Shown here: positions 32,737 through 50,664 of the stretch, piece after piece
How the letters are laid out: each line of letters begins with the position of its first letter
Numbering within the stretch: the first letter of the stretch is position 1
Origin: Mycolicibacterium madagascariense
Lineage (GTDB): Bacteria > Actinomycetota > Actinomycetes > Mycobacteriales > Mycobacteriaceae
Length of the DNA stretch: 64,000 nt
Reading direction: 5' to 3'
Assembly: GCF_010729665.1 (NCBI RefSeq)
Contig: NZ_AP022610.1
Span: 2,914,001-2,978,000 of the forward strand
The notes under the pieces: generated by a model
Seen by the model: the letters and a program-made list of their open reading frames with translations, nothing else
The model's database searches: none
What the model was told of the DNA's origin: nothing
Position numbers and translations under genes: made by a program

Positions 32737-33284
32737 ACTAGGGGACTGCGAGAGGTGTTCCCGCCATTCGACATCGCCGGCTCGTCGGTAATTCGGCGGC
32801 CCGTCACAATGATCGACGGAACCGCCTGGCGATCGGGGGGCCTAGTTGCTAGCTGCCACGCAGCTGATCGATGAGGTGGTAACTCGACGGCCCGTCGGGC
32901 AGGACCCAGGCGGCACCCCGCGGACGGTTCTGGCGTCGGCCCATTTTCGCTAGTTGGTCCGCCCTGTGCCGTATTCGTATTCCACGAGCCAGTAGCTATT
33001 CGCGACCCCGGACCGTTGGCGCAGTACACGTAAAGACAGGCTGACCAGGGGCAAGACCGCCGCTGCCTGATTTACAAAATATTTGCAGTGCGTTTCTACT
33101 CTAGGGACGGGATGCCACGGCGCGTGACTGCATCGAGGTGTCCCCTGATCGGGGGACGGATGTTTCATCCCGTGCCGTGTCCGATCGCGGGACAGACGCC
33201 GCCGACGGATCGCAGCACGCTGCATCCGCCGCCGGCAGCATCTGCGCATCACGCCGACGAGCAAACAACGGAAGGGCAACCACG
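32737..33284. other. Intergenic region with promoter motif and one possible 31-codon ORF
   Basis: No standard gene is recognised. On the minus strand 32849-32944 encodes a 31-residue peptide beginning MGRRQNRPRGAAWV with mycobacterial-like codon use; it may be a small gene or a gene tail, and support is weak. The right part holds the 17-mer promoter motif at 33071 and the long leader of the gene at 33285. Confidence 0.4.
33071..33102 (+). promoter_or_regulatory. 17-mer promoter motif copy 1 with -10-like TACTCT
   Basis: TTTACAAAATATTTGCA (33071-33087) is followed nine bases later by TACTCT (33097-33102). The core CAAA-ATA-TTTG is an inverted repeat. This copy and copy 3 (minus strand at 40383-40399) also share the bases between motif and hexamer almost completely. 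It points toward the CDGP secreted protein at 33285. Confidence 0.65.
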
Positions 33285-33695
33285 ATGACCAACACCACCA
33301 CACAGCGCATGCGCCGCCTCGCCGGCGGCACCGTCCTGTTCACCGCTGCCGTGGCGTCGATCGCCGTGGGTGCCCCGGCGGTCGGTCATGCCGATCCCGG
33401 CCCCACCGCCGGCCCCACCATGGGTTGCGAAGTCATCCACTGGAGTTGGGCCTGGGCTGGCCGCCGCAAGGTGTGCGACGGCCCCAGGCAGGCCGACGGA
33501 AGCTGGCAGCGCATCCGCACCGTATACGATGTGGCGCACACCGACCCACAGAGTTGCACGTCCGATGGCAGCTGCAGTGGGGGCAAGTTTCATCCGGAAA
33601 CCGTCTATAACCAGGAGGCCTATCCGGTGACGGACGATACGGTGCTGCCCGACGAGCCCGGGTGGCTGCCGCCCTACACCTACAACGTCCTCTGA
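33285..33695 (+). CDS. Secreted CDGP-domain protein
   Basis: This 136-residue exported protein has a signal peptide (MRRLAGGTVLFTAAVASIAVGAPAVGHA, cleavage before DPGP). The mature part holds the CDGP-type segment KVCDGPRQADGSWQRIR, typical of a small family seen in mycobacteria, and several cysteines (GCEVIHW, QSCTSDGSCSGG) that could form disulfides. The function is not established. ATG 33285 follows GGAAGGGC. A leader of about 175 nt separates it from promoter motif copy 1. Confidence 0.85.
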   Translation: MTNTTTQRMRRLAGGTVLFTAAVASIAVGAPAVGHADPGPTAGPTMGCEVIHWSWAWAGRRKVCDGPRQADGSWQRIRTVYDVAHTDPQSCTSDGSCSGGKFHPETVYNQEAYPVTDDTVLPDEPGWLPPYTYNVL

Positions 33696-34174
33696 CCAAC
33701 CACAGACGCTTGAACGGGCCGGTCCGCATTGCGGGCCCGGCCCGCCAGTCGTTGGGCGTAGCTGACATGGCCAAAAGCCTGTCGGCATTGACGGCGGCGA
33801 TCGCGGCCTGGGCCATGACCCAATAACAGCCGCACCCGCCGACCTCAAGGCCGAACGATTTGCCTCACAGCGTCTTTGACGTTGACTTCGGCACAGTTCG
33901 CGCGTCGCGGGCCTGATGCCGGCCCGAGGGAATTTCTCACCGTCGGGGTCCAGCCGGACGAGAATCGTGACTTCGCGTGGATCGCCCGCGCCTAACGCAA
34001 CGCTCGATCCTGTGCGGTCGGTGTCTATTCGGGGTTCACGTCAGGCTTTACCCATTCAATTGCACGAACTCTCCACCGCGAGGGCGCGATTGCGATTGCG
34101 ATCGCGAAGCCAGCGGCGGGCATTGCGCTGATTTTGAGTGGCGTTACTGCCCGACATCACCTGTCGTGGCGATG
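33696..34174. other. Intergenic region, no gene recognised
   Basis: An imperfect GC hairpin (GGGCCGGTCCGC against GCGGGCCCGGCCC, about 33717-33743) follows the CDGP gene and may act as a terminator. The rest up to the convergent gene end at 34175 shows no convincing coding signal. Confidence 0.4.
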
Positions 34175-35566
34175 TCAGGAACCAGCCGACGTCGACGCCG
34201 CCTTGTGGGCGCTGCCATCTGGATCCGTCTTCGCAGCGGTAGGGGAGTCGTTGGCGGTTGATGCGGCGGCGGGCTCCTTGACCGACGTGTTCGACGACGT
34301 CGCCGAAGCACCGGCGGTGGTCTTCGGTTGCACCTTGTTGCCCGAGGTGACGTCCACGGTCTTGGTCGATGCCGTCTCGGCGTCAAGTGTGGTCTCGTCG
34401 GCGGCATGGTGTGCGGGGGCGTCGCTGCTCACCGTCGTCGAGTCGGTGGTCGCGGTCTTTGCAGAGACCTTGGAGGCTGCCGACGCGCTCGACTCTGCCA
34501 CGCCTGCAGTCGAAGTCGACGATTTCCGTGCAAGCGAGGTGCCGTCAGTCGTCGTCGACTTCTCGTGGGTCGAGGCGGCGGAGATGGACGGGCTCGACTG
34601 CGTGATGCCGGTGGCGGACTGAACGGACGTGGTGGTCGACGAGGCTCGAGTCGTCGGTGCGACGGTCGCTGTGACGGTGCTGGAAATGGTGGCTTCGTCA
34701 GGGAAGGCCGCTTGGACGAGGCTGGTGACGAAGTCGCGAGCGATGGCGAATCCGCCGTTTTGGCCGAAGGTGTTGGTGACGGCGGTTTGGAGGACGTTGC
34801 CAATACCGGCGGCGACCGCACTGGCGACCGCGACGGGGTTCAATGTCCCCAATGAGGAGATGACTCCTTGCACGGCATTCACCAGACTGGTCCGGGCGGA
34901 GACGTAGACGTCGCGAACGCGGAGTCCCTGCGTGTTGATGATTCTCGGTGCGGCTCTCACTGCGTTGGCCAGGGGACTGAGCGGTATGTAGCGCGCGATC
35001 GCCGCGGCGGCTTTGTCTGTGACGTCTGACTTTCCGTAGTCGACGAGGGGGTTGATGATGAGGCCCTCGAGGCTCGCGAAGGCGCCGTTGACGTTACCTT
35101 TCAGGAGGTTGCCGTATGCCGTAGCGACGGCGGAGAGCGTGTTGTTCGCGAACGACTGAATGATCCGGCCGATCAATTCGTCCACTGCCGTAACCACCGC
35201 CGCGTAGTCAGCCGGGTTCAAGGTGGGGAGTGAGAGGGTCGCATCGACTGCGATCAGGGGTGTGATGGCGGTGGGGGACGTCGCCACGGCCGCCAGCTGA
35301 TGCACCGAGGTCGTGGAGAGCAAGGTCGGAGACGTCGCCAACAGGCTGGCGACGGTCGGCCCGGTTGCCTCGAGGCTGTCGCGCAGGGCGGTCTCGGCTT
35401 GCCGCACCGTGCTGGCCGCCGATTGGGTGGCCGAGGTCAGTTGGGCGGCCAACCGGTGCGGAGTCGGCGTCGGTGAGATACCGAGGGCTCCGACCGAGAG
35501 CACTGCCGCAGCGACCAACACCGTCGACGACGTCGCGGCGCGTCCGGACACGCTAGCAACCTGCAT
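34175..35566 (-). CDS. Exported Ala/Ser/Thr-rich protein of unknown function
   Basis: This 463-residue protein has an N-terminal signal sequence or anchor (TVLVAAAVLSVGALGI). The middle (about 40-300) is ordered and mostly helical (DYAAVVTAVDELIGRIIQSFANN, NLLKGNVNGAFASLEGLI, ARDFVTSLVQAAFPDEA). The C-terminal 160 residues are a low-complexity Ser/Thr/Ala tail (TTDSTTVSSDAP and similar), likely extended through the wall. No enzyme domain is recognised; the layout recalls mycobacterial exported proteins near PGRS genes. ATG 35566 has AAAGCTGG upstream. Its leader shares 30 of 40 bases with that of the second PGRS gene. Confidence 0.78.
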   Translation of the reverse strand: MQVASVSGRAATSSTVLVAAAVLSVGALGISPTPTPHRLAAQLTSATQSAASTVRQAETALRDSLEATGPTVASLLATSPTLLSTTSVHQLAAVATSPTAITPLIAVDATLSLPTLNPADYAAVVTAVDELIGRIIQSFANNTLSAVATAYGNLLKGNVNGAFASLEGLIINPLVDYGKSDVTDKAAAAIARYIPLSPLANAVRAAPRIINTQGLRVRDVYVSARTSLVNAVQGVISSLGTLNPVAVASAVAAGIGNVLQTAVTNTFGQNGGFAIARDFVTSLVQAAFPDEATISSTVTATVAPTTRASSTTTSVQSATGITQSSPSISAASTHEKSTTTDGTSLARKSSTSTAGVAESSASAASKVSAKTATTDSTTVSSDAPAHHAADETTLDAETASTKTVDVTSGNKVQPKTTAGASATSSNTSVKEPAAASTANDSPTAAKTDPDGSAHKAASTSAGS

Positions 35567-35638
35567 GAGACCAGCTTTCGTGAAGAGGAAATGCGGGCGA
35601 ACACCCGTGCATCAGGAAACCTACAGTCGCGGCCGCGC

Positions 35639-35678
35639 TTTGCTGAGCGACCCCGCTGAGGTGACAGTAACGCACGAA
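35639..35678 (-). promoter_or_regulatory. Leader/promoter block shared with second PGRS gene (copy 1)
   Basis: An ungapped comparison with 50521-50560 gives 30 of 40 identical bases, with blocks TTTGCTGAG and GTGACNGTANCGCAC at identical spacing. On the minus strand a TACTGT -10-like hexamer lies in the block, about 90 bases before the start codon of the exported protein, with TTGACG upstream. Confidence 0.5.
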
Positions 35679-35740
35679 TGGGCGGCGGCGTCAATGTCTC
35701 GTCGAGGAAGAGGAGTTGTCAATCGGGCCACCCGCGCAGC

Positions 35741-35772
35741 TTTACAAAATATTTGCAATCCGTCGTTAAGGT
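35741..35772 (+). promoter_or_regulatory. 17-mer promoter motif copy 2 with TAAGGT
   Basis: An exact TTTACAAAATATTTGCA lies at 35741-35757, followed nine bases later by TAAGGT (35767-35772). It reads toward the small membrane protein at 36105; because the core is nearly symmetric it could also serve the minus-strand gene starting at 35566. Confidence 0.6.
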
Positions 35773-36104
35773 GGGTCGGTGTCCACTGTCGTGCTACCGA
35801 CAACCTGATGTGGCAGTGGCGATTTGGCGAGTCGGAGCCACCGGTGGAATTCGCGCGCGGAGTTCGCGTACGGCGGCGGTCGTTGACGCACCATCGAGCG
35901 AACGTTCGGGACGCGTCCATGGGTCCTCGATCAGTCCGGCCCCGGCACATGATCGCTGACCGCGTTGCTAGCGGGGTGTCGAGATAATGAATTCGATCGT
36001 CGATCGACGTTCGCGACACCAGCCGAAGATCAGCCGCCGCCTTCTCGCCGCGAACGCCGTCGCGACGTCCATGTGTCCAGTACGACTCGACACCGGGCAT
36101 CGAG

Positions 36105-36461
36105 ATGAGCCCACCAGTGGGTAACGCGCCAGAACACGTCGCCGGCGGAGAACGCCGCGCGGGCCGGCGATGGCCGACGTGGCTGCTGGCCGTGCTGACG
36201 GTCGTGGCAGCAGTATTTGTGATGCTGTTCGCCCTTGGCGCGGCGATGAGTACTGCTGGGTGCAGTGGCCCGGGATGTCCGGACATGAGCGCCCGGTCGC
36301 TATATGCGGTGCTGTTCTACGGCCCGCCGGCGGTGGCGGGGCTAACGGTCATCGGATCATTCTTTTTCGCCAAGCGTCGTTGGGGTTTTCTCGTCCCGCT
36401 AGGCGCGCTGATCCTGTTGGGCGTTGACCTGGCCGCGTTGGCCGCGATGTTCCGGCGTTAG
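36105..36461 (+). CDS. Small membrane protein, function unknown
   Basis: This 118-residue protein has three predicted membrane segments (WLLAVLTVVAAVFVMLFALGA, LYAVLFYGPPAVAGLTVIGSFFF, GFLVPLGALILLGVDLAALAAM). A short loop holds two cysteines (AGCSGPGCPDMS), and the protein has a basic C-terminus. No family was recognised. ATG 36105 begins directly before the polar N-terminus. It lies downstream of promoter motif copy 2 and convergent to the first PGRS gene. Confidence 0.65.
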   Translation: MSPPVGNAPEHVAGGERRAGRRWPTWLLAVLTVVAAVFVMLFALGAAMSTAGCSGPGCPDMSARSLYAVLFYGPPAVAGLTVIGSFFFAKRRWGFLVPLGALILLGVDLAALAAMFRR

Positions 36462-36731
36462 CCTGCGGCCCCCGGGACGACGATGGTCTTAGCGACAGCG
36501 CGCGGCGGGAACGGCCGCCGCGCCACGAACGGGACCGCGGCGTGGGGGAGAGGTACTCGTCACCGAGCAGAAAACACCGCCTCGAAAGGCGAAGTTGGAC
36601 AACCACTCTGGAAAGCACCGGTAACTCGTCGAATCGGTTTCGTCGTACTGCGGGTCTGCGCGGCTTCGACGTAATCGGCCATCGGGCACGCGGCCCCGGA
36701 CCCGTCGTGCCCGTGGCCCACCGCACGGTGC

Positions 36732-39700
36732 TCAGCCGTTGACGCCCGGCTTGCCGTTTCGGTCGGTTCCGATCCCACCGGGACCGCCGAGTCCGCCGGG
36801 AGCGCCCCCGGCGCCGCCGTCACCGCCGATGCCAGTGCTGGCCAGGGTGGCCTTGCCGTTGCCGCCGGCGCCACCTGCACCGCCGGTGCCGTTGCTCGCG
36901 CCGGCACCCCCGCCGCGGCCGCCGTTGCCGCCCCTGCCGCCGTTGCCGCCCGTGGCGGCCGAGGAAGCGCCCCGGACCGAGGCGCTGCCCCCCATTCCGC
37001 CGTTACCGCCGTTTCCGCCCGCACCGTTCGCGCCGTCCGCGCCCTTGGTGCCGGTGCCGCTGGCACCACCGGACCCAGCGCTACCGCCGTTGCCACGGAT
37101 GCCCCCGGTGCCCCCGGTGCCGCCGAGTCCGCCATCGCCGCCGCGCACCGTCGTCCTGCGCTTCACTTCGTTGACGCCGTTGCCTGCACCGCCGGTACCA
37201 CCGTTGCCGCCGGTGGCGCCGTTGCCGCCGCGGCCCCCGCTGCCGTTGGCGCCAGACGCGCCGTCGACGAGGCCCGTTCCGCCGTCGCCGCCACTGCCGC
37301 CGTTGCCACCGTTACCCCCGTTGCCACCGCTGGCACCATTACCACCGTTGCCACCGGTCCCGCCGACGAGCCCGGTGGCGCCATCGACGCCATTGACGCC
37401 CGCTGCACCGTTGCCGCCAGCGCCACCGTTGCCACCGGTACCGCCGGCGCCACCGTTGCCACGGGTGCCGGCGACGCCGCCTTGACCACCGGTGCCACCC
37501 GTCCCCGCCGCACCACCATCGCCTGCCAAGCCGCCGTCGCCGCCGCGACCGCCCGGGCCGCCGTCCAGACCGGCTCCGCCGTTACCGCCAGCGGCATCGG
37601 CGTTGACGCCTGGTTTACCGGCAGCGCCGGTGCCGCCCGTGCCGCCGTCGCCTCCGTTACCGCCCTTGCCGCCGTCCCCGTTGGCTCCGGCTTTCCCGGC
37701 GGCGGCGGTACCGCCGCCCGCCGCACCAATGATTCCGGCGTTGCCACCAGCTCCGCCATTGCCGCCGAGTCCGCCGAAGTTCCCGATGCCAGCGGCCCCG
37801 CCGAGGCCGACTCCGGGTGTCCCGGTATCTCCAGTAGCGCCGTTTCCGCCGTTTCCGCCTGCGGCGCCGTTGCCCGCGTTCCCGCCCGCGCCGTCGGTCC
37901 CGGCGGTACCCCTCACACCGCCGGTTCCTCCGGTGCCAGCCGAACCGGCGGTGCCGGCTGCGCCTCCGCGGCCTCCGTTACCTCCCGCACCGCCGACTTG
38001 TCCCTTGGCGCCGTTGGCACCGGGGGTGCTGCCGTTGGCGCCGTTGGCGCCGGCCGCACCGTTTCCGCCGTTGCCGCCGTCGGCGCCGTTGCCGGCATTT
38101 CCACCGTCACCGTTGGTGCCGTTGACGCCGTTGACTGAGCCTGCGCCGCCCGTCCCGGCGTTGCCGCCGTTGCCGCCACCACCGCCGTTTCCACCGGAGG
38201 TACCGTCGCCACCCGCTCCGCCAGGGTTCGCGGCGTTGGCGCCCGCGGATCCGCGGGCGCCGTTGGCACCGTTTCCGCCTTTGCCGCCGTTTCCGCCGTT
38301 GCCGCCGACACCTCGCACCGCGGACAGGCCGTCAGTACCGGCTTGGCCGCCGGTGCCGCCCGTACCCGCTGCGCCGCCAGCGCCTGAAGTGCCTGCAGCG
38401 CCGCCGTTTCCGCCGTTGCCGCCGGCCTGACCGTTGGTTCCGTCGCCGCCGTTCCCACCGGAGGGTGGGGCCGCCAAGCCAGCGGCGCCGTCGGCACCGT
38501 CAGCGCCGTTGGCGCCGGCCCCGCCATTGGCGGCGTTCCCCCCGTGACCGCCGGAACCGTTCACCCCGGCCATCCCGGACTTGCCGAACAATCCCGCACC
38601 GCCACCAGCGCCCGCGTCACCGCCAGTTCCACCGCTGCCGCCGGATCCACCAGCCATGCCGTCGCCGCCAGCACCGCCAGCCTCTTTGGCTGCCAAACCC
38701 TGGGTACCGGCCATGCCGCTGCCACCGGCTCCGCCGTCACCCCCGGATCCACCCGCACCGCCGTTACCGATCAGCAGACCGCCCCGGCCGCCGGCGCCGC
38801 CCTTGCCGCCTGCAGACCCGCCGGCACCGGATTGACCCTCGCTCACGCCGTCGGCGCCGGTGCTGCCATTGGCTCCGGCCCCGCCAGCGCCGCCGTTGCC
38901 CAAGAAGAGGCCACCGTTGGCGCCACGCCCCCCGGCACCGCCGTCGATGCCCAGTACGCCGGCGCCGCCGGCACCGCCGGTGCCAATGATTCCGACCGCG
39001 CCGCCGTTGCCGCCATTGAAGCCGCTACCGCCCACACCCAGCAATAACCCACCGTTACCGCCTCGGCACGCCGCGCCACCCACGCAGGTCGCAGCGGTGT
39101 AGCTGTAGCCGGTTCCCAGCAGCAACCCGGCGTCGGGGTGCGCGGCGGTGCCGTTGCCGATGAACAGCGTCAGCACGTCGTTGACGAAGTCGCCCAAGTT
39201 CGGTGCGGCGGCCGGCGGCTGCGTGGCGAGCGACGCGACGTTGATCCGCGGTGCCGCGGCAACAACGCTAGCGGTGGTGGTCGTGATCGCTGAATCATGT
39301 TGGGAAACAGCGGATTTCGTCGCTACCGACTTTACGGTGGACGAGTCCACTGCGCTGGGTGACGTCGACGCCGCGGGGCCCGAACTGGTCGCCCGCGTGA
39401 CTGTTGCGGCAGCGGTGGTCTTCCCGGCTCCGCCTGCCGTTGATTGGTGGCCGGCTCCGGGGCTCCCGGTGTCATCCTGGCGGCCAGCAGTATTGGAGAC
39501 GGCGCTGGTGCCCGTGTCGGTGCCGTGCTTACCGTTCCCATCCGCACGGCCTGCCGTGGTGGGGTGCCCGGTGCCATTCTTGGTCGACGCTCCCGCCGCG
39601 CCGGTCGACGACGACGCGGAGGTGCCGCTGGGACCGGTGGCGGGCCTCTTGGAGGTAGCCCCAGACAAAGATATCCCGCTCGACGTGCCCGACGTACCAG

Positions 39701-39989
39701 CTGCGGTGGACCCCGCTAGCGAATCCTTGGTTGACGTCGAACCCTTCGACGACGTACTGCTGCCCTTGCCTACGGACTCACCCGAATCGCCGGCATGCGT
39801 GGCCGAGGAACTCGCCTCGGAATGGGTGGTGTCGGCCTGGGCCACGGCGGCGCCGGAGAGCAGTGCCGCCCCGACCCCGACGCTGAACGCCCCGGCAGTC
39901 AACCAGCCCGACACCGGCAGCACCCGACCACCTTCACGTGCGGCTGCGCGTTTGCTGTGCTGACTATCCCTGCGGTGTCGCCCGGCCAT
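36732..39989 (-). CDS. PGRS-repeat surface protein with signal sequence instead of PE domain (paralogue 1)
   Basis: This 1085-residue protein has an N-terminal signal/anchor ([19 protein letters not shown], ending AQAD) instead of a PE domain. A Ser/Thr/Gly-rich linker (about 55-255) follows, then a conserved junction ([44 protein letters not shown] with two Cys). About 760 residues of PGRS-type repeats come next ([23 protein letters not shown] units). The C-terminus is [16 protein letters not shown] domains are calcium-binding-like glycine-rich folds on mycobacterial surfaces. ATG 39989 is preceded by GAGGAC. It is a paralogue of the gene at 44527-50362. Confidence 0.85.
36780..39080 (-). 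repeat. PGRS glycine-rich repeat array (paralogue 1)
   Basis: GC-rich 9-bp units encoding Gly-Gly-Asn/Ala/Thr occupy most of the gene. The opposite strand appears as long proline-rich open frames, which are shadows. Repeats of this type recombine and slip easily. Confidence 0.85.
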
Positions 39990-40382
39990 CGTCTGTCCTC
40001 GGAGTCCTTCGTCGTCTGATAGCGAAACACGGTCGTTCCGCTTCTGTCGCATGGTCATTCGTCTGTGGCTGCGAAGCCGTCGACCGGGTATCGAGCTCCG
40101 GCCGGGGCCTTCCGACAGCGCGGTGCATGGCTACGCCGAAGCGACGGTGATTTGCGCACCACACCGCAGACGACGAATCGTTGGCCCGGGCTCACGATTA
40201 GTTCCCGGGTACCACGTCGCCGTCGGTTGCCCTCGATGGGTGGTGATCACCGTGTTTCCGTCCCAGTCTCGTCACGCGCCCCCTGTCCGGTGGGATCGCG
40301 CGGTGTGTCAGCAGCGAGCGTCACTGTCACGACCGGTCGTCGATCGCGCGCGGGGGTTCGAGTCCTCAGAGTAGGAACGCAC

Positions 40383-40399
40383 TGCAAATATTTTGTAAA
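40383..40399 (-). promoter_or_regulatory. 17-mer promoter motif copy 3 upstream of PGRS paralogue 1
   Basis: On the minus strand TTTACAAAATATTTGCA is followed, nine bases later, by TACTCT (40368-40373). The intervening bases match copy 1 except one. It lies about 390 bases before the PGRS start codon at 39989, implying a long leader if this is its promoter. Confidence 0.65.
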
Positions 40400-40479
40400 T
40401 CAACCTCCGGCGACCGTCGATGACGTCGAACGTTTGCTGCGTGTAAAGAGTTGGTATTCGACGTCGTCCACCGCAGTAA

Positions 40480-40496
40480 CGTCACAGTGACGAATA
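40480..40496. repeat. Left copy of the CGTCACnGTGACGAATA repeat flanking the arsenic island
   Basis: CGTCACAGTGACGAATA is a 13-bp palindrome plus an AATA tail. A second copy in the same orientation (43684-43700) matches 16 of 17 bases, differing only at the palindrome centre. The two bracket the ars genes and the recombinase remnant. A third, shorter copy lies at 44136. Confidence 0.6.
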
Positions 40497-40796
40497 GGGC
40501 CACTCACACGGGGGTCTCGCGACCGCGGACCGCTGCCGCAAATTGGCCCAGTGAGCGCGAAGACAGGCTTGACTGCGGGCGCCCCGGGTTGCTTCTCCAT
40601 GTTGTTGGCACTCGCAGTTGTTATTGGTACCGACGCGCGCGAAGAAGGTGCGAGTCGTCCAACAGTGCGCCTTAGGCGGATACCTGCTGCATCGTGAAAA
40701 GGCGCCGGGCGACTGCGCGGAGTCGTGTCGATCAGCCAGTCGTCCCGTGGTGCGAGCATTTCATCAGATGCAACTCACACTGGTTTACTGGCATGG

Positions 40797-41288
40797 TCAC
40801 GTATCACTTTGTGTCGAGTGCGTTTCCGGTTTATGCCCCGGGGCCGTCTGATTCTGTTGGTGGGTGAGGCGGTCGGTGAGGTCGTTGACTCGGGCGTTGA
40901 TGTCGTCGCGGATGAGGCGCATGCGTTCGATGCCGTCGATCCCGCGCAGCGATGGTTCGTCGGTTTCCCAGATCTCAATTGGCGTGGTGGTCGGGTTGAG
41001 GTGAGCTTGGGTTCCGAGGACGACTATCAGATCAGCGGCGTCGATTAGGGCGGCGGTGAGCTGAGTGGGCGTGTGGTCGCTGATGTCGATGCCGAGTTCG
41101 GCGAGCGCTTGTGCGGAGATGCTATTGACTGAGGTGGTCCTGGCATGGGTTCCCGCCGAAAGCGTGTTGACGCGCCCTTGGGCGGCATGACGCATGAGGC
41201 CCTGTGCCATCACGGATTTCCCGGCATTGCTGACGCAGACGAATAGCACGGTGGGTGGGGCGGGTTGGGCGGGGAGGCTATCGGTCAC
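40797..41288 (-). CDS. arsC: Low-molecular-weight-phosphatase-type arsenate reductase
   Basis: This 163-residue protein is of the LMW-PTPase fold. Its P-loop reads VLFVCVSNAGKSVMAQGLM, with Lys where the usual CX5R motif has Arg; the related actinobacterial arsenate reductase group often shows a GGKS-like variant. Downstream elements STAGTHA-like (LSAGTHARTTSVN) and GIDISDHTPTQL fit the family. It would reduce arsenate to arsenite, which Acr3 exports; in actinobacteria the thiol may be mycothiol. GTG 41288 overlaps the acr3 stop by 11 bases, so it is translationally coupled. A long polar tail follows residue 140. Confidence 0.85.
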   Translation of the reverse strand: MTDSLPAQPAPPTVLFVCVSNAGKSVMAQGLMRHAAQGRVNTLSAGTHARTTSVNSISAQALAELGIDISDHTPTQLTAALIDAADLIVVLGTQAHLNPTTTPIEIWETDEPSLRGIDGIERMRLIRDDINARVNDLTDRLTHQQNQTAPGHKPETHSTQSDT

Positions 41289-42396
41289 GCGTGGCTCCTG
41301 GATCGGCGGTGACTCCAGATGGCGCGGTGACTGCGTCGGGGAAGCGGTGGCGCAGGGCCAGGGAGACGTAGACGAGTGCGACGAGGACCGGGACTTCGAT
41401 GAGTGGACCGACGACGCCGGCCAGGGCTTGGCCGGAGGTGGCGCCGTAGGTGGCGATCGCCACGGCGATGGCGAGTTCGAAGTTGTTGCCAGCGGCGGTG
41501 AATGCCAGGGTGGTGGTGCGTTGATAGCCCAGGTGCAGGACTGCCCCCAACAGGTAACCGCCGCCCCACATGATGGCGAAGTAGGCCAGCAGGGGCAGCG
41601 CGATGCGAACGACGTCAAGTGGTTTGTGGCTGATCTGGTCGCCCTGTAGGGCGAACAGCACGACGATGATGAACAGCAGCCCGTAGAGCGCCCACGGCCC
41701 GATGCGGGGCAGGAATCGCGCTTCGTACCAATCGCGGCCCTTCGCGCGCTCCCCGAGCCCTCGGGAGAGGTATCCCGCGGCCAGGGGGATGCCCAGGAAG
41801 ATGAGCACCGATTTGGCGATCTGCCAGGGCGAGGTGGTGATGCTGGTTGGGGGTAAGCCCAGCCAGCCGGGCAGCACCGAGAGGTAGAACCATCCCAGCA
41901 CGGCGAACATGACGACCTGGAAGATCGAGTTCAGTGCCACCAGGACGGCGGCGGCTTCGCGGTCACCGCAGGCCAAGTCGTTCCAGATGATGACCATGGC
42001 GATGCAGCGGGCCAGCCCGACGATGATCAGTCCGGTGCGGTATTCGGGCAGATCGGGCAGCAGCAGCCAGGCCAGGGCGAACATCAGCGCTGGGCCGAAC
42101 ACCCAGTTGAGCAGCAGGGAGCTGAGCAGGAGGCGGCGATCGGAGGCGACGGTGTCGAGGCGGTCGTAGCGAACCTTGGCCAGCACCGGATACATCATGA
42201 TCAGCAGACCTAGCGCGATGGGCAGGGAGATTCCGTCGACCTGCACGTCGTCCAGGGCGGTGTTCAGCCCGGGGATCAGCCGGCCCAGCAGCAGCCCAGC
42301 GGCCATGGCCACCCCGATCCAAACTGGCAACAGGCGGTCGAGGGTGGAAAGTCGTGCTGGAGCGGAGGATTCGTCGTTGGCTGTCCTATTGGTCAT
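41278..42396 (-). CDS. arsB: Arsenite efflux transporter, ACR3 family
   Basis: This 372-residue permease has ten predicted helices. Hallmarks of ACR3 are VGLARCIAMVIIWNDLACGDRE with the essential Cys131 in the fourth helix, NSIFQVVMF, and the second inverted-repeat segment FTAAGNNFELAIAVAIATYG with GPLIEVPVLVALVYVSL. It extrudes arsenite driven by proton motive force. It begins at ATG 42396, 33 bp after the arsI gene, and overlaps arsC. The gene is often named acr3 or arsB. Confidence 0.95.
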   Translation of the reverse strand: MTNRTANDESSAPARLSTLDRLLPVWIGVAMAAGLLLGRLIPGLNTALDDVQVDGISLPIALGLLIMMYPVLAKVRYDRLDTVASDRRLLLSSLLLNWVFGPALMFALAWLLLPDLPEYRTGLIIVGLARCIAMVIIWNDLACGDREAAAVLVALNSIFQVVMFAVLGWFYLSVLPGWLGLPPTSITTSPWQIAKSVLIFLGIPLAAGYLSRGLGERAKGRDWYEARFLPRIGPWALYGLLFIIVVLFALQGDQISHKPLDVVRIALPLLAYFAIMWGGGYLLGAVLHLGYQRTTTLAFTAAGNNFELAIAVAIATYGATSGQALAGVVGPLIEVPVLVALVYVSLALRHRFPDAVTAPSGVTADPGATRDR

Positions 42397-42429
42397 CGGA
42401 TTCTCCAGCTCGGGTCGACGAATGGGCGG

Positions 42430-42906
42430 TCAGCAGCACGACACCGTGGGCGCCGCCATGGGGTCCTGGCTGGCGCCGTCGCAGCACACCCCGCCGCCAC
42501 GGTTGGCGGCGTCGCCGTGTTGAGGGCTGGTGCCAAAGGTCTCGGAGTCGGCCAGCACGGTGTAGACCTCCCAGCGCTCACCGCCGGGCCCGGTCACCCA
42601 GACCTTGTCCTGGGTGGCGAAGCAACACGTGGTGCCAATCTCCTCGTCGGTGAACACGCCGGCCTCGGTCAGCCGAGCGATCTCGGCGTACACGGTGTCG
42701 CTGGAGTCGACCTCCACCCCGAGGTGGTTCAGGGTGCCGCCCCGGCCAGGGTTCTCCAGCAGCACCAGCTTCAGCGGTGGCTCGGTGATCGCGAAGTTCG
42801 CATACCCGGGTTTGCGCTTGGCCGGCTCGGCGCCAAAGAGCTTGGAGTAGAACGTGATCGCCGCGTCGAGGTCGTCGACGTTGAGGGCGAGCTGAACACG
42901 TGACAT
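42430..42906 (-). CDS. arsI: ArsI/CadI-type VOC-family dioxygenase (C-As lyase)
   Basis: This 158-residue vicinal-oxygen-chelate protein has metal ligands expected at Gln5 (RVQLALNV), His61 (NHLGVEV) and Glu in RWEVYTVL. The vicinal Cys94-Cys95 pair in GTTCCFATQD corresponds to the trivalent organoarsenic-binding cysteines of ArsI. ArsI cleaves the carbon-arsenic bond of methylarsenite or roxarsone-type compounds; CadI of mycobacteria is the same family. Further cysteines close the C-terminus (GGVCCDG, VSCC). ATG 42906 is right beside the operator region. It is the first gene of arsI-acr3-arsC. Confidence 0.9.
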   Translation of the reverse strand: MSRVQLALNVDDLDAAITFYSKLFGAEPAKRKPGYANFAITEPPLKLVLLENPGRGGTLNHLGVEVDSSDTVYAEIARLTEAGVFTDEEIGTTCCFATQDKVWVTGPGGERWEVYTVLADSETFGTSPQHGDAANRGGGVCCDGASQDPMAAPTVSCC

Positions 42907-42927
42907 GAGACGTCCTCCAAGTTGTGA

Positions 42928-42985
42928 GACATATATCGAACTCTGTGGCGTCGCCATCATGGCTTACCTCTTTGATATATGTCAA
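42928..42985. promoter_or_regulatory. ArsR operator pair between arsI and arsR
   Basis: GACATATATC (42928-42937) and GATATATGTC (42974-42983) are perfect 10-bp inverted repeats 36 bp apart. The right site is itself a near-palindrome TTGATATATGTCAA (42972-42985), typical of SmtB/ArsR operators. Each sits close to one of the two divergent starts, so one repressor could control both directions. Confidence 0.75.
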
Positions 42986-43006
42986 TGTCTGTGGCAGGGT
43001 GATTGC

Positions 43007-43366
43007 ATGCCCAAGGCGTTACCCGTGATCGACACCTCAGCACCGGTATGCTGCGCTCCGGTGGCCTCGGGTCCGATGAGTGACGATGATGCGTTGCAGA
43101 TCGCGCTGCGCCTCAAGGCACTGGCCGATCCGGCGCGAGTCAAGATCGTGTCGTATCTGTTCAGTTCCGCCGCCGGCGAGGAGAACTCCGGGGAGTTGGC
43201 CGCCGTGCTGGGCTTGACCGAGTCCACGGTCAGTCACCACCTGACCCAGCTGCGCAGGGCCGGGCTGGTGGTCTCGGATCGGCGCGGCATGAACGTGTTT
43301 CACCGCGTCCGCCCAGACGCACTACAGGCGTTGTGCGTAGCGTTGGATCCCAACTGCTGCATCTAA
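43007..43366 (+). CDS. arsR: ArsR-family arsenite-responsive repressor
   Basis: This 119-residue winged-helix repressor has an HTH (SGELAAVLGLTESTVSHHLTQLRRAGLV) and a wing (SDRRGMNVFHRV). The N-terminal vicinal pair Cys15-Cys16 matches the placement reported for actinobacterial (Corynebacterium-type) ArsR; residue 55 is Ala, where that protein has its third Cys. A C-terminal CysCys (PNCCI) may supply the extra ligand. ATG 43007 was chosen as it follows CAGGGTG and puts Cys15/16 in register; the frame is open upstream. It is divergent from arsI across the operator pair. Confidence 0.9.
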   Translation: MPKALPVIDTSAPVCCAPVASGPMSDDDALQIALRLKALADPARVKIVSYLFSSAAGEENSGELAAVLGLTESTVSHHLTQLRRAGLVVSDRRGMNVFHRVRPDALQALCVALDPNCCI

Positions 43367-43413
43367 TGGGGTGACGTTGATCGAGGTGTTCACTGCCCCG
43401 GGCATTCTTGGTG

Positions 43414-43684
43414 TTACGTGTCCGCGTGGATGCGGTCGGCCACGTAGGCGCCGTATTGGCCGGAGCCGCGGCGGTCGTGGCGGATCGCAGTTTGCGGGTT
43501 GCAGCCGAGGGCGTCGGCCAGGACCGGGGGCGGGGTGATCTGGGTGATGTCTGCCAGGTCCCGATGCGTGTAGAGAGCGAGGGGAATCCGAGGGTCTTGA
43601 GGCGGAGCCGGACGTGGCCGGCGGTGAGGTGATTCCCGGGTCGGTAGCCGGGAAACACCCACGGCCTGCGGCACAGGTTATTAC
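43414..43684 (-). pseudogene. Frameshifted C-terminal remnant of a tyrosine recombinase/integrase
   Basis: In one minus frame the DNA encodes WVFPGYRPGNHLTAGHVRLR and KTLGFP, typical of the region before the catalytic tail of actinobacterial site-specific recombinases. After a frame change at about 43575 it continues as IPLALYTHRDLADITQITP and VLADALGCNPQTAIRHDRR, ending YGAYVADRIHADT. Together these form the usual C-terminal tail. The rest of the gene is absent. It lies between arsR and the right flanking repeat, and so suggests past mobility of the arsenic island. Confidence 0.65.
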
Positions 43685-43700
43685 GTCACTGTGACGAATA
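43684..43700. repeat. Right copy of the CGTCACnGTGACGAATA repeat
   Basis: CGTCACTGTGACGAATA is in the same orientation as the copy at 40480-40496; including the neighbouring TNA, 17 of 19 bases agree. It abuts the recombinase remnant. It could be an attachment-site-like direct repeat or a shared operator. Confidence 0.6.
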
Positions 43701-43777
43701 AACACTTAGAGGCTGAGCCTTGGGCGCTTGACTCAATGCGGGACGATCAGGGGCGCACGGGACGCGGTCGACCAACC

Positions 43778-43802
43778 TGAATGCAACGGTACGTTGCATT
43801 CA
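43778..43802. promoter_or_regulatory. Perfect 11-bp inverted repeat (orphan operator-like site)
   Basis: TGAATGCAACG and CGTTGCATTCA flank a GTA spacer with no mismatch. No gene start lies nearby on either strand. It could be an operator left by a lost gene, or a recombinase or transposase end. Confidence 0.55.
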
Positions 43803-44135
43803 CTTAGAGAATCGCCAGCACAACCCCAAGACGGGAGCGGCCGAAGCTGCAAGTTAGACGGGAAAGCAGTTCCTCACAAGTATTCAACCAGCGACTGTGA
43901 CGATAAGAAAGAATGCCGATAAGCGACATTATGTCAGTTCGTAAGTTGGTTATTCGCATGGGCCACTGGCGTCGGTTAACGGCGCGACGAGGTCCATTGC
44001 ATTCATTGGTCGTCGGACAACCCGTGCTGCCCAGCGACGATCGGTCGAGCGGCCGGCCGTTGTGCAGAACCGCTTGCGACCGTCGGCCCAATCACCATGT
44101 CCCCGGGGTTGCCTCCGCCTTCGAGATCATCCTTT

Positions 44136-44150
44136 CGTCACGGTGACGAA
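44136..44150. repeat. Third CGTCACnGTGACGAA palindrome
   Basis: CGTCACGGTGACGAA matches the palindrome core of the two ars-flanking repeats but lacks the following TA (it reads GATG). It lies outside the candidate island. Confidence 0.45.
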
Positions 44151-44520
44151 GATGGACTAGGCGATATACATCCGTTGCGGGTCGCCCCCACGCTGCGACG
44201 GCCACTACCCACGCCACCCTCGGCCGGCCCGGCGACCACCCGGGCCGGATCGTGGGGGCCCCGGTCAACACGATATCGCCGTGCAGTATTGCCGGTGTGC
44301 CGGCAACGAGACCGGTGATACCCCGGCAAATCCGCTTTCCTTGGTGTGGTAGAGCCGCAGCCGTTGCGAACCAGGTGTGTCATCCCGGGCGCCGGGCACC
44401 GGTCCGGGACGCCCACAAGTGATGTAGACCGGCCAACTGACACCGTTGCCCCGGAGCCAATCTTTTTCTCCGCAACCACGTCCGTCATTTGGCGCTCCCG
44501 CGTTACGGGCCGAGACGTCT

Positions 44521-44536
44521 AGACCTCTAGAGGTCT
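44521..44536. repeat. Perfect 16-bp palindrome at the end of PGRS paralogue 2
   Basis: AGACCTCTAGAGGTCT is fully self-complementary and overlaps the stop codon at 44527-44529. It could be a protein-binding site or a short hairpin; its function is unknown. Confidence 0.45.
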
Positions 44537-47500
44537 TGACGTGTTTGGCCGTGGACGCCGTTGCGGCCGCTTCCCGCCGTCCCGACACCGCCCACGCCGC
44601 CTGCCCCACCCCCACCTAGGTAATCTGATATGTCGCCCCCGTTGCCCCCGTTGCCGCCGGCGCTGCCGGGAAGTGTCGCGTTGCCGCCGTTGCCGCCGTC
44701 GCCGCCTACTGCGAGAAGGGAGACGCGGCCTACGACATCGCCGCCGTCGCCGCCGTCACCGCCCTGGGCCAGTCCGGTGCCACCGGCGCCGCCGGTGCCC
44801 CCAATGCCTTCATTCAAGCGGGTACCCGACACGGTGACTTGCCCGCCCGAACCGCCGTCGCCTCCCGTTGTTCCCATGCCACCGCCGCCGCCGTGGCCTC
44901 CATACAGATTGTAGTTGGACGGAAAGGTCTCGACGTTCACATCGCTGGTGCCACCGGCGCCACCAGCGCCGCCGTTGCCCACGGTGGCGCCGTTGCCCCC
45001 GTTACCGCCGTCCCCACCAGCGCCACCGGTACCCGTTTCGAGTGAATTTGCGAATTCAGGGAGGTGGGTGCTGGCACCGTTGCCGCCGGCGCCGCCGTCA
45101 CCTCCAGCGCCGTTCGCGCCGGCAGTCGCGGCCGCCACTGATCCGCCGGTGCCGGGCTGGCCACCAAGTCCACCGTTCCCGCCGTTGCCACCGCTTCCAC
45201 CGTGGCCGCCGGTGACGTCCAGAGTTCTCTGGATGGGGTGACTCGGATCACGGAGTATCTGACCTCCGTCGCCCCCTGTGCCGCCTGCGCCGCCTTTGCC
45301 ACCGGTGCCGCCGGCACCGTCGAGGCCGGTGGCGCCCATGGTCGAGCCGGTGCCGCCGTGCCCGGCGTTACCGCCGGTGCCGCCCTGGCCGCCGGTGCCG
45401 CCGGCGCCGCCTGCAGTTCCGGCTGCGCCGGTGAAGGTGCCGTCGAACGGGACGAATCGGGAGGCGCCGTTCGTGCCGGGGGCGCCGTCGGCGCCGGTGC
45501 CGCCGCGACCGCCGGCGGCACCGTTGCCGCCCACGCCACCCACGCCTTGGGTAGAGCTGGCACCGGCTGCCCCCTGAATGCCGCCGGACCCGCCGCTGCC
45601 GGCCGCACCACCAACGCCGGCGATGCCGGCCGCGCCACCAGCGCCGCCATCGCCACCGGAGCCGCCGCTGCCGCCGGCGGTGCCGGCACCGCCGGCGCCG
45701 ATGCCGGTGGTGCCGTCGATGCCGGCTCTTCCGTTGCCACCGCTGCCGCCGGTGCCGCCCGCACCAGCGTTGCCGCCGGCCCCGCCGTCCCCGTTGCGTC
45801 CGCTGGCGCCGGTAATCGAACCACTGCCACCGCGCCCGCCGTCACCACCGGTACCGCCCGCGCCTCCTGAGCCACCGATCCCGCCGGTCCCGCCGTCGGC
45901 GCCTGCGCCACCAGCGGTCGTCGCATCGCCGCCGGTGCTGCCCGTCACGCCCTGGGCGCCGTCACCACCACGTCCACCCACTCCGCCGACGCCGCCCATG
46001 CCTCCGGCGCCTTGGTTCGCACTTGCACCGGTGGCGCCATCGCTGCCGCCGGTGCCCCCGGTGCCGGCGAGACCACCCGCGCCGGCGGTGCCGGCCGCGC
46101 CACCATCGCCGCCGTCCCCCCCATTACTTCCGGTGCCGCCAGCTGTGCCGGATTCACCCGGGGCGCCGCCGTCGAGTCCGTTCATCCCGGCCGCGCCGGT
46201 GGCGCCAGTTCCGCCGACCCCCCCGTCGGCGGCGTTTCCGCCGTTGCCGCCGTCACCGTTGGCGCCGCTCAGCCCGGTGACGGTGCCGGTGCCGCCGCGT
46301 CCGGCGTTGCCACCGGCCCCACCGATGCCGCCGGAACCGCCCGCACCACCGGTGGCGCCGTTCGCGCCGTTGCCCGCGGCGTCGATCCCCGCACCGGTGG
46401 CGCCGGTCGTGCCGGTGGCGCCGGTGGCGCCGTTGCCGCCACGGCCGCCATCACCGCCAGCACCGCCATTGCCTTGATTGGCCGCCTGGCCAGCGGTCCC
46501 GTCATGGCCACCGGTGCCGCCGATCCCCGCCGCGCCGCCGGTACCGGCAAGACCCGCCGCGCCGCCGGTTCCGCCATTGCTGCCGTTGCCACCAGCGCTG
46601 CCCGCACTACCGTCGGCGCCGGGCGTAGCCCCGTCTTCCCCGTCAGCGCCGTCAGCGCCGTTGGCACCGCGGCCACCGGTGCCGCCGTCAGCGGCGTCAC
46701 CGCCATCGCCACCGTCACCGTTGGTTCCGGCAGCGCCGATCGTGGAGCCCGCACCACCGGCGCCTGCGTTCCCGCCGGCGCCTCCGGCGCCGCCGCTGCC
46801 TCCGGTCCGCCCGGTCCCACCGGTACCCCCCGTCGATGAACCGTTCACACCCGCCCCACCGGTGGCGCCGTTGCCGCCGTCACCGCCGCGGCCACCGTCA
46901 CCGCCTGCCCCACCGACACCCTGGATCGCGTCGGCGCCGGTCCTCACCGCCCGGCACCGCCGACTCCCCGGTTCCGCCGTTGCCGCCTGCGGTGCCGTCC
47001 TGACCGCTGCCACCGATCGTGTACGCGTTGCCCCCGAACGCGCCGTCGACGCCGTCGGCACCATGCCCACCAGTGCCGCCGTCGGCGGCGTTCCCGCCGT
47101 TGCCGCCGTCGCCGTTGGTTCCGGTGGCCCCGGTCGTGGAGCCCGCACCACCGGCGCCGGCGTTGCCACCCGCGCCCCCGGCGCCGCCGCTGCCGCCGGT
47201 CTGCCCGGCCTGCCCGTTGGCCCCGGGGGTGGAATTCGCCGCGCCTACCGCAGCGGCCGCACCCGCCGCGCCCGCCGCACCGGGGGCGCCGTTACCGCCG
47301 TTACCGCCGCGACCTCCGTCACCGCCCGCCCCGCCAACACCCTGGATCGCGGCGGCACCGTCGGCGCCGGTGACCCCACCGCTGCCTCCGGTCCCGACGG
47401 CACCCCCGACACCGGCCAGACCGGCCGCGCCTCCGGCACCGCCGGCGCCGCCGTTGCCGCCTGCGGTGCCGTCGCCGCCGGTGCCACCGGCCGTGGTCGC

Positions 47501-50362
47501 GTTCGGCCCATCCGTACCGTCGATGCCGTCGGCGCCGCGGCCACCGTTCCCGCCGCCGCCAGCATTGCCGCCGTTGCCGCCGTCGCCGTTGGTTCCGGTG
47601 GCCCCGGTCGTGGAGCCCGCACCGCCGCCGCCGGCGTTGCCGCCCGCGCCTCCGGCGCCACCGCTACCACCGGCCTGCCCGGACCTACCGTTGGCTCCCG
47701 GGGTCGTAGCCGCCGCACCGTCCGTGCCGGCCGCGCCGTTGCCGCCCACGCCGCCGCGGCCCCCGTCGCCGCCGGCCCCGCCAACACCCTGTATCCCGGC
47801 GGTGCCCTCAGCGCCGCTGACCCCACCAGTGCCGCCGGTGCCCGCCGCACCCCCGACGCCGGCCAGACCGGCCGCCCCGCCGGTGCCACCCATGCCACCG
47901 TTGCCACCGGAGAGGCCCGCACCGCCGTATTCGCCGATCGCGACACCGCTGGCGCCGTCGTGACCGTCATTGCCGTTACCGCCGCGCCCACCGACACCGC
48001 CGTCGCCGGCGTTACCGCCGGTGCCGCCGTCGCCGTTGACCCCGGTGGCGCCGAGGGTGGAGCCCGCACCACCGCTGCCAGCGTTACCGCCCGCGCCTCC
48101 GGCGCCGCCGTTGCCGCCGACCTGCCCGTCACCCCCGACATACCCGCCGCCACCGACCCCCGGATAGGTGGCACCCGCCGCACCCGCCGCACCCGTGGCG
48201 CCGTTGCCGCCGCGACCACCGACCCCGCCGTTGCCGCCCGCCCCGCCCGCACCCTGGATGGCCGCGGCGCCGTCGGCGCCGGACTTTCCACCGGTACCGC
48301 CGGTCCCTGCGCTGCCTCCGACACCCGCCAGACCGGCCGCGCCGCCCGTTCCGCCGGTGCCGCCTATCCCACCGGCGGTGCCTGCGCCGCCATCGGCGCC
48401 GGAGGTCACACCATCGGTCCCGTCGGCACCGGTCGCGCCATCCGCACCGCGGCCACCGGTTCCGCCGTCAGCGGCGTCACCACCGGTGCCTCCCGAGCCG
48501 TTGACCCCAGCTGCGCCGATCGTGGAGCCCGCGCCGCCGGCACCGGCGTTGCCGCCCGCCCCTCCGGTGCCGCCGCTGCCGCCAGTGCCGCCGGTCCCGC
48601 CGTTGGCGCCGGGGTCCGGCCCTGCTGCGCCGGTGACACCAGCGGCGCCGCGTCCACCGGTGCCACCGCGGCCACCATCACCACCGGCACCGCCGACACC
48701 CTGCACCGCGCCGGCACCATTGGCGCCGCCCCCGCCACCGGTGCCTCCGCTGCCCGATGCGCCCCCGATGCCGGCCAGACCCGCCGCGCCACCGACGCCG
48801 CCGGTGCCGCCGGCCTGTCCGGCGCTGCCCGCACCTCCACTAGCGCCGGCCGTGGTTGCGTCCGCGCCGTCCGTGCCGACGGCGCCGTCCGCGCCGCGGC
48901 CACCGGTTCCGCCCATGCCTGCGTTGCCACCGCGGCCACCGGTTCCATTCACTCCTGACGTCCCGGCGGTCCCGAACAGTCCGGCACGACCTGCCGCGCC
49001 GGCGTCCCCGCCGACCCCACCCGTACCGCCGGATCCACCCGCCATACCGACACCACCGGTGGCTCCTGCCGTGGTGGCCGACAAGCCTTGGGCGCCGACC
49101 GCGCCATTGCCGCCAGCACCACCGGCCCCGCCAGCGCCGCCGCTGCCGCCAAATCCGATCAGCAGGCCGCCGCTGCCGCCAGCCCCGCCCCGACCACCCG
49201 CCGATCCGCTGGCACCGGACTGCCCCGCAGTCGTGCCATTCGCGCCACTAAGACCATTGACGCCCGCACCGCCGGCACCACCGGCCCCGATGAACAGGCC
49301 CCCGTTGCCGCCCGCACCCCCGGCGCCGCCGTTGATGCCGTTCACCCCGGCCCCGCCGTTGCCGCCGTTGCCAAGGAACCCGACCGCCCCACCGTTGCCG
49401 CCGTCGAAACCGGCGCCCCCGATGCCCAGCAGCAGGCCGCCGTTGCCGCCACGGCACGCCGCGCCGCTGCTGCAGGACGTGGCGGTGTAGCTGTACCCGG
49501 TGCCCAACAGCAGACCCGCATTCGGGTGGGTGGCGGTGCCGTTGCTGACGAACAACGCCAGCACCTGATTGAGCACCGTCCCCAGATCCGGCGGGGCCGC
49601 GGCCGGAGTGACCGCCGTGACGGCAAGGCGCGCCGGCGCCACGACGGCGCCAGTGGCCACCGCGCTCTGCGGGAGCGTCGACGACGCGATCGTTGGCACC
49701 TCGTGGAGGGTGCTCGACACCGCCGTCTTCGTCGCCGATGCCGTTTCGGTCGACGGGGTGCTGTCGTGCGGGGCGGTCGCCTCACTGATGTGAGCCGATG
49801 GTGACCTGTTGGCGGCTTGCATAGTGGATCTTGCCGCCGTGGATGGCGCCGACCCGGTGGTGTGGGCGGCCGAGCGTGACCCGGTACGCGCCGAGGTGCC
49901 GGCCTGCCCGGCGCCAGTCGAGGCCGACACCCCCGATGCATCCGTTGCAGACGACTGCGGCGACGACACTGACGACGCCGAAGAGGGTGAAGAGGACGAG
50001 GTGCCGCTACCGCCGGCGGCGGTGCTCACGGTCGCAGCGCCTGATGAGGACACCCCACTCGAGGTGTGCGACGTACTCGACGATCCGGCCGCCGACGGCG
50101 CGGCACCCTTCGACGTCGTCGGACCCTTCGACGACGCACCGCTGCCGGTGCCCGCGGACCCACCCGAATCGCCCGCATGCGTCGTGGAGGATGAACTCGA
50201 ATCGGAATGGGTGGTGTCAGCCTGGGCCGCGCCCGCACCGGCGAGCACCGCTGCGCCCACCCCGACGCCGACCGCGCCGGCAGTCAACCAGCCGGACACT
50301 GGCAACACCCGACCGACCCCACCGTCGCTGCGCCGCGTGTCCTTGCGATGCCTAGCCGCCAT
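44527..50362 (-). pseudogene. PGRS-repeat surface protein, paralogue 2, interrupted by a frameshift
   Basis: The N-terminal part (ATG 50362, GAGGGG upstream) encodes a signal/anchor almost identical to paralogue 1 ([23 protein letters not shown]), then a Ser/Thr linker, then the junction ([31 protein letters not shown]) and PGRS repeats. This frame runs to a stop at 46898 after the out-of-character tail [22 protein letters not shown]. The PGRS pattern resumes in another minus frame ([18 protein letters not shown]) and continues about 800 residues to a distinctive C-terminus (FPSNYNLYGGHGGGGGMG, then GRNGVHGQTRQDL) and a stop at 44527. The intact ancestor would have about 1,940 residues. Either the 1154-residue shortened form is made, or the locus is inactive or variable. 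Confidence 0.75.
46898..50362 (-). CDS. N-terminal open frame of PGRS paralogue 2 (1154 residues)
   Basis: This is the part of the second PGRS gene that can be translated without a frameshift. It has an export signal, a linker, a Cys-containing junction and about 800 residues of PGRS repeats organised in larger units of about 95 residues. Those units contain [16 protein letters not shown] followed by [19 protein letters not shown]. The last 20 or so residues are frameshifted nonsense. It may still be exported and displayed, since PGRS length is variable in general. Confidence 0.7.
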
Positions 50363-50520
50363 CAGAAGATTCCCCTCACCCGTCATACGTTCATTGATCA
50401 GCGAGCCGTGTCCAGCCCCCTGCCCCACCACCAGTGCTCACCGAACTCATCAAGACTCGCTGCCCCTGCTGAGGGGGATTCGAGCTAGAAGATCGCTGCA
50501 GCCCATAGACGTGACCCAAA

Positions 50521-50560
50521 TTTGCTGAGTGGTGACGCCGGGGTGACTGTAGCGCACAAA
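50521..50560 (-). promoter_or_regulatory. Leader/promoter block shared with 35639-35678 (copy 2)
   Basis: The same ungapped pattern (TTTGCTGAG, 22-bp phase, GTGACTGTAGCGCAC) as upstream of the exported protein at 35566. On the minus strand it contains TACAGT as a -10-like hexamer and lies 159 bases before the PGRS start at 50362. It suggests common control of the two exported proteins. Confidence 0.5.
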
Positions 50561-50633
50561 CGAGTACGCCCAACGTCACGTCTCCGCCCCGAAATGTGAC
50601 GTCTTTTCGGCCCGCTGCCGGGAGTCGAACCGG

Positions 50634-50664
50634 TTTACAAAATATTTGCAATCAGTCTTATACT
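50634..50664 (+). promoter_or_regulatory. 17-mer promoter motif copy 4 with TATACT
   Basis: An exact TTTACAAAATATTTGCA lies at 50634-50650, followed eight bases later by TATACT (50659-50664), the best -10 hexamer of the four copies. It reads toward the cutinase gene at 51071, with a leader of about 400 bases. Confidence 0.65.

Follow-up and report, generated by a model that had tools for sequence, protein, structure and literature searches.

A near-invariant 17-nt direct repeat before genes of Mycolicibacterium madagascariense, many of them for exported proteins, probably the operator of a large AfsR-like SARP activator

Four exact copies of one 17-nt sequence, each followed closely by a -10-like hexamer, lie in a 64,000-nt stretch of the Mycolicibacterium madagascariense genome (contig NZ_AP022610.1, positions 2,914,001 to 2,978,000; hereafter the window). 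This raises the question of which protein reads these sequences and which genes they serve. Very probably, the 17-mers are operators of a large AfsR-like SARP activator that is encoded elsewhere in the genome and controls a regulon rich in surface proteins. The window has a G+C content of 0.686. The positions, strands and sequences of the four copies given in an earlier note on this DNA were all borne out, as were the distances to the hexamers:

33071..33087, + strand: SARP-type box, copy 1, exact 17-mer, direct repeat TTTACA-N5-TTTGCA
33097..33102, + strand: -10-like hexamer TACTCT, 9 nt 3' of copy 1
35741..35757, + strand: SARP-type box, copy 2, exact
35767..35772, + strand: -10-like hexamer TAAGGT, 9 nt 3' of copy 2
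40383..40399, - strand: SARP-type box, copy 3, exact
40368..40373, - strand: -10-like hexamer TACTCT, 9 nt 3' of copy 3
50634..50650, + strand: SARP-type box, copy 4, exact
50659..50664, + strand: -10-like hexamer TATACT, 8 nt 3' of copy 4

A chance origin had been judged unlikely, and 100 dinucleotide shuffles gave an expectation of 0 copies. No further copy was found in the window at up to three mismatches. In the spacer between motif and hexamer, copies 1 and 3 are identical at 8 of 9 bases.

The genome and its relatives were searched for the 17-mer, as the earlier note had proposed, which returned nine sites in the genome itself and, at up to one mismatch, hits in 5 of 297 genomes of the genus, this one included. 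The nine sites in the 5.94-Mb genome, collected at up to three mismatches, comprise five exact copies and four with one mismatch, the latter differing at positions 10 and 12 only; there was none with exactly two or three mismatches, and a control pattern gave 0. Because five of the nine lie outside the window, the window holds a cluster of four and not the full set. The proposed restriction to an envelope-gene region thus applies inside the window but not genome-wide.

The two hexamers of the 17-mer form a direct repeat with an 11-bp period and agree at five of six bases. The sequence had instead been described as a dyad, CAAA-ATA-TTTG, which could serve as a palindromic operator of a dimeric repressor or nucleoid protein. 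The dyad is formally present in the exact copies, but comparison across genomes favours the direct repeat. In an alignment of 22 sites (all those then known except loci L012 and L064) the variation is lopsided: positions 11 and 12 each change in 4 of 22 sites, whereas their dyad partners 9 and 8 change in none. An element 0.1 kb from the Williamsia maris homologue of the regulator described below reads TTTACA-TTTTC-TTTGCA and is followed by TAGTGT at 9 nt; both hexamers and the -10 are retained and the middle has changed, so that the dyad is broken and the repeat intact. The orientation relative to the -10 is, moreover, fixed in 23 of 28 sites, and a dyad operator is highly improbable.

In the 22-site alignment, columns 1-17, T19, T23 and the -10 carry much information, and the columns upstream carry little, with at most 0.31 bits at -1 to -19 and 0.61 at the adjoining base. 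The spacing is conserved as well. Of all 28 17-mer matches finally listed for regulator-bearing genomes, 20 have TANNNT 9 nt downstream and 3 have it at 8 nt, with about 0.07 expected from background; counted from the 3' repeat as a heptamer, the gap to the -10 is 8 bp in 20 sites and 7 bp in 3. A long near-invariant element at an almost fixed distance from a hexamer would also suit an alternative sigma factor of the extracytoplasmic function (ECF) type, reading TTTACA/TTTGCA and the hexamer as -35 and -10. However, the downstream hexamer is of the ordinary TANNNT type and variable inside, and two hexamers at 20 bp and 9 bp from it are unlike a bipartite sigma promoter, which, judged from the promoter sequences, makes such a factor very unlikely. 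Near the regulator genes of genomes G308 and G303, two looser elements of the same layout were seen and left out of the counts.

In two published studies (PMC10936776, PMC10972967), SARPs are described as binding repeats in direct orientation at a spacing of 11 or 22 bp, the 3' one being 8 bp from the -10. Because of this arrangement, ten genomes were searched for BTAD proteins. Proteins of the same type were found in M. madagascariense and in three relatives with good sites, and not in the other six genomes. The M. madagascariense protein is a large SARP of 1149 aa, encoded at G000 C1:1742709-1746155, and is the sole BTAD protein detected in that genome. Its BTAD match (PF03704, E 2.7e-20) is above the cut-off; the nucleotide-binding domain matches AAA_16 (E 3.2e-29) and carries the P-loop GEAGSGKTT, with a weak NB-ARC match (E 6.9e-4) below the family cut-off. 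The Pfam matches included none to the winged helix itself and no receiver domain. A profile of the SARP region built from seven homologues matched EmbR over residues 7-251 and AfsR over 29-252, and an AlphaFold2 model of this region in the Mycolicibacterium sp. P1-18 orthologue predicts a winged helix followed by a helical domain, with a predicted local distance difference test score of 91.9.

The distribution of this protein was compared with that of the sites. Among the 297 genus genomes, nine gave regulator matches at E <= 1e-60, four of full length and five at 31-32% identity without the SARP region. The full-length regulators belong to M. madagascariense, G035 (79% identity), G151 (78%) and G136 (73%). 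Sites at up to one mismatch occur in these same four genomes and in G166, which has no regulator and a single match (L012) without TANNNT; a site plus -10 at this threshold is found in exactly the four genomes with a full-length regulator. In a larger sample, 5 of 396 genomes carried a full-length regulator, the fifth being G314 (58% complete); L052, whose draft genome this apparently is, has one match.

Homologues beyond the genus were sought in two ways. A two-peptide-pattern scan of 84,980 species genomes, which missed several relatives found by later searches, yielded nine relatives in Mycobacterium/Mycolicibacterium, in Williamsia and in one record labelled Kitasatospora arboriphila. A protein search in which 8000 candidates were scored gave 36 matches, 29 of them at 53% identity or more; those with names came from Mycobacterium/Mycolicibacterium, Williamsia and Rhodococcus sp. 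MEB064. Eight genomes represent the genus of W. maris; six carry a homologue, and a match at up to two mismatches is present in five of these and in neither of the two that lack one. All eight genomes found with a regulator at least 73% identical, including three from that genus, carry a match at up to two mismatches.

Regulator and site are also often close to each other in both genera. Six genomes have a match with a -10 no more than 8 kb from the regulator gene: the distance is 4.1 kb in M. madagascariense (to site L007), 4.4 kb in G151, 7.7 kb in G035, 0.8 kb in G136, 0.5 kb in a Mycobacterium draft and 1.3 kb in G303. G304 has a match without a -10 at 1.6 kb; in G298, G299 and G305 no 17-mer match is close to the regulator. 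Because the SARP co-occurs with the sites, is often near one and belongs to a family known for such an architecture, it is favoured as their reader, and an alternative sigma factor or a nucleoid protein looks less likely.

Several observations weigh against this assignment. In a tree of rpoB domains from 29 genomes the four regulator-bearing Mycobacterium genomes form one clade, with G153 nested inside; that G153 has neither a regulator match nor a site at up to three mismatches counts in favour of the link. As the four positives are one clade, the co-occurrence does not amount to four independent events, and a contingency test on the 297 genomes would overstate the case. The comparison of distributions covered the SARP/BTAD regulator alone. 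No match was found in four genomes with regulators of 54-58% identity (searched at up to three mismatches in G300-G302 and up to two in G308), and the one match in G304 (60% and 47%) overlaps the end of an open reading frame (ORF) and has no -10. Among the six genomes with regulators of at most 60% identity, sites with a -10 are confined to G303, where two are present although the homologue contains one in-frame stop. Regulators of the W. muralis type have a different recognition helix, which fits the view that the misses in low-identity genomes may reflect a changed specificity. For G035, the search at up to three mismatches returned 1 match to the control pattern, as against 6 to the motif.

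The hexamer, too, is not universal. Five of the 28 matches have no TANNNT at 8-9 nt: three orthologous Williamsia sites carry TGTACT at 9 nt, and neither L064 nor L075 has a hexamer of this kind at that distance, so that G298 and G305, with regulators of 77-79% identity, have no 17-mer match plus TANNNT. The exact site L005 has no likely gene on its own strand for 1.7 kb. In the protein, the position of AfsR T88 is Gly, and no TPR family was found by Pfam at E <= 0.001. Lastly, DNA binding, activation, the position of the transcription start and the inducing signal are what we infer.

The large SARP, the proposed activator, combines a winged helix, a BTAD, an AAA/STAND-type ATPase and a long C-terminus. 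Two protomers would sit side by side on TTTACA and TTTGCA, 11 bp apart, and cover about -38 to -22. The bound SARP, standing in for a proper -35 element, would hold sigma region 4, and transcription would be initiated from the TANNNT 8-9 nt downstream. The regulon would then consist of about nine promoters in the M. madagascariense genome, rich in exported and surface proteins.

Such an arrangement resembles that of AfsR of Streptomyces coelicolor at the afs box of the afsS promoter. As described in PMC10936776, the AfsR box is centred at -29.5, its upstream repeat shares bases with a poor -35 element (-38 to -33), and R92 contacts T-38. Both proteins are large SARPs with a BTAD and a P-loop ATPase, and in both cases 11-bp direct repeats overlap the -35 region and stand close to the -10. 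If the -10 here, as we infer, occupies -12 to -7, each repeat has its TT(T/C)A core in the same register in both systems. An Arg aligns with AfsR R92 in all ten aligned homologues (numbering counted by hand). The repeats themselves differ, CGTT(T/C)ATCGNN for AfsR against TTTACA/TTTGCA here, as do the T88 position and the C-terminus, with no TPR detected here, and the targets here are scattered and include many exported proteins, in contrast to an antibiotic cluster. EmbR of Mycobacterium tuberculosis has a C-terminal FHA domain, according to the same source (PMC10936776), unlike the AAA ATPase and long C-terminus found here. It shares the mycobacterial SARP-type winged helix and BTAD, with a profile match over nearly the whole SARP region (E 2.1e-11).

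An element about 9 nt 5' of TANNNT with no conventional -35 would suit any activator that adapts the sigma factor, and OmpR-type proteins use 11-bp direct repeats too. The housekeeping sigma factor could accordingly be recruited by a response regulator of the OmpR/PhoB type or by a PafBC-like WYL protein at a -26 element. Mycobacterial PafBC, according to PMC11804915, engages an element near -26 and adapts the housekeeping sigma factor, but it is a WYL-domain heterodimer for DNA damage and belongs to another protein family. It is the SARP, however, the one regulator whose distribution was compared, that co-occurs with the sites in two genera, often near one, and a different activator is unlikely.

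The genes that the large SARP would control were then listed, first for the window:

33285..33695, + strand: CDGP-domain protein downstream of copy 1, 136 aa, signal-like start (by eye), Pfam PF24238, E 2.2e-19
36105..36461, + strand: ORF of a 118-aa hydrophobic protein downstream of copy 2, no Pfam match
36732..39989, - strand: Gly-rich PGRS-like protein downstream of copy 3, 1085 aa from the ATG at 39989, signal-like start (by eye)
51071..52000, + strand: cutinase gene, Pfam PF01083, E 2e-47, link to copy 4 uncertain

and for the remainder of the genome:

L005, G000 C1:3302906: exact site with a good -10, running towards a convergent pyridoxal phosphate (PLP)-enzyme gene
L006: TetR gene about 0.5 kb away
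L007: ABM-domain protein gene
L008: second PGRS-like protein
L009: cadherin/immunoglobulin (Ig)-like protein

The PGRS-like protein at 36732..39989 has no PE-domain match, as it has no Pfam match at all. The copies had been placed in the leaders of genes for exported or membrane proteins, which holds for several of them, but the link to the cutinase gene is loose: its start codon lies about 400 nt from the predicted transcription start, with an 80-codon ORF between. The analysis supported the long leaders, predicted at about 175-400 nt within the window, and the suggestion that several genes for exported proteins have a promoter site of a common, activator-dependent type in front of them. A purely envelope regulon was not supported: at most six of the nine targets look exported or membrane-bound (judged by eye, with no signal predictor), and other sites face the ABM-domain gene, the TetR gene and the convergent PLP-enzyme gene. 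The transcript from L005 is possibly antisense or orphan.

Targets in relatives include a cadherin/Ig-like protein, PGRS-like proteins, a flavin adenine dinucleotide (FAD)-oxidase/ABM pair and, in Mycobacterium yunnanensis (L042), an SdpA-family gene at 8068-8793 on the - strand (PF17418, E 1.5e-25) downstream of an exact site. Two weak target matches, to GH18 and, in a small Williamsia protein, to PA-IL lectin, are both below the cut-off. The list of targets holds no family-search assignment or match for L064, L074, L075, L077 and L117-L119. A CDGP gene adjoins the regulator in two relatives, L039 (by Pfam) and L061 (by likeness to L039), with a site in front only in L061. No obvious biosynthetic cluster was seen among the inspected neighbours and targets (exported proteins; ABM, FAD-oxidase and amidohydrolase genes), although no search aimed at such clusters was made.

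In two species, a gene for a guanine-deaminase-like amidohydrolase is found close to the regulator and ABM genes (L038, 8217-9707, - strand; L041, 9179-9854, + strand), the second case being assigned by likeness only. The enzyme is possibly linked to the signal that the regulator senses. In G136 the ABM gene occurs twice, at C4:359449-360529 and C12:58052-59135, and at both places it is split into two pieces that overlap and lie in different frames.

The leaders bear on how the promoters arose. Some are alike beyond the promoter, such as those of L015 and L011 with L010/L009, as would be expected if the copies had no function of their own and were carried along by gene duplications or by a repeat element. 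However, the bases upstream of the site are little conserved, the downstream genes are of different families, and the 17-mer is near-invariant across two genera, which leaves this reading with next to no probability. The leader of L015 (an FAD-oxidase in G035) shares two segments with the L010 adhesin, 35 bp at 86% identity spanning a former start codon and 24 bp at 92% identity that match the adhesin coding start. The leader and first codons of a cadherin/Ig-like gene persist in it as a degenerate remnant. The leader of L011 (ABM) matches L010 over 55 bp at 76%; that of L007 gave no match at E <= 1e-3. Because the L015 and L011 leaders resemble the L010 adhesin leader, it is suggested that some promoters may have been captured from adhesin genes together with their leaders. 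Folding of 22 leaders from the predicted start to +85 revealed no general RNA structure (mean z -0.23), L009 alone reaching z -3.76. An alignment of 11 leader sequences contains shared segments, but it is too uneven for counting covariation.

The regulon may be traceable through transfer between genera, because the regulators of Mycobacterium and W. maris are as alike (77% identity) as the Mycobacterium ones are mutually (71-85%). Tentatively, the system could be a transferable surface-remodelling switch. The SARP-ATPase would have moved between Mycobacterium and Williamsia and would recruit unrelated genes by copying a ready-made promoter-leader cassette, which comprises the site, the -10 and the leader and in some cases extends into the first codons of an adhesin that is exported. 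The linked enzymes (amidohydrolase, ABM and FAD-oxidase) might synthesize or degrade the small molecule that the regulator senses. The record L058 (NZ_JNYV01000002.1), titled Kitasatospora arboriphila, encodes a regulator 96% identical to the Williamsia muralis one, and its label may be wrong.

The 17-mer is thus distributed over a few mycobacteria and Williamsia, in front of genes that are often for exported surface proteins, and is most likely the docking site of one shared AfsR-type activator. In the literature searched, which did not reach most subscription journals, neither the 17-mer string nor an account of this regulon was found; the kind of system is already known, and the regulator member, the site and the targets were not found there. 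SARPs are known chiefly as activators of antibiotic clusters. If the proposed activator is confirmed, the role of the family would extend to cell-surface remodelling in mycobacteria, on the basis of a large SARP, a sharply defined near-invariant operator and scattered targets, many of them exported proteins; the regulator, its proposed site and the candidate targets are named precisely enough for direct testing.

Two further PGRS-like frames overlap in the window on the - strand, at 44527-47169 and 46898-50431. No site was found for either frame, and only the upstream one has a signal-like start; together they look like one long gene broken by a frame change.

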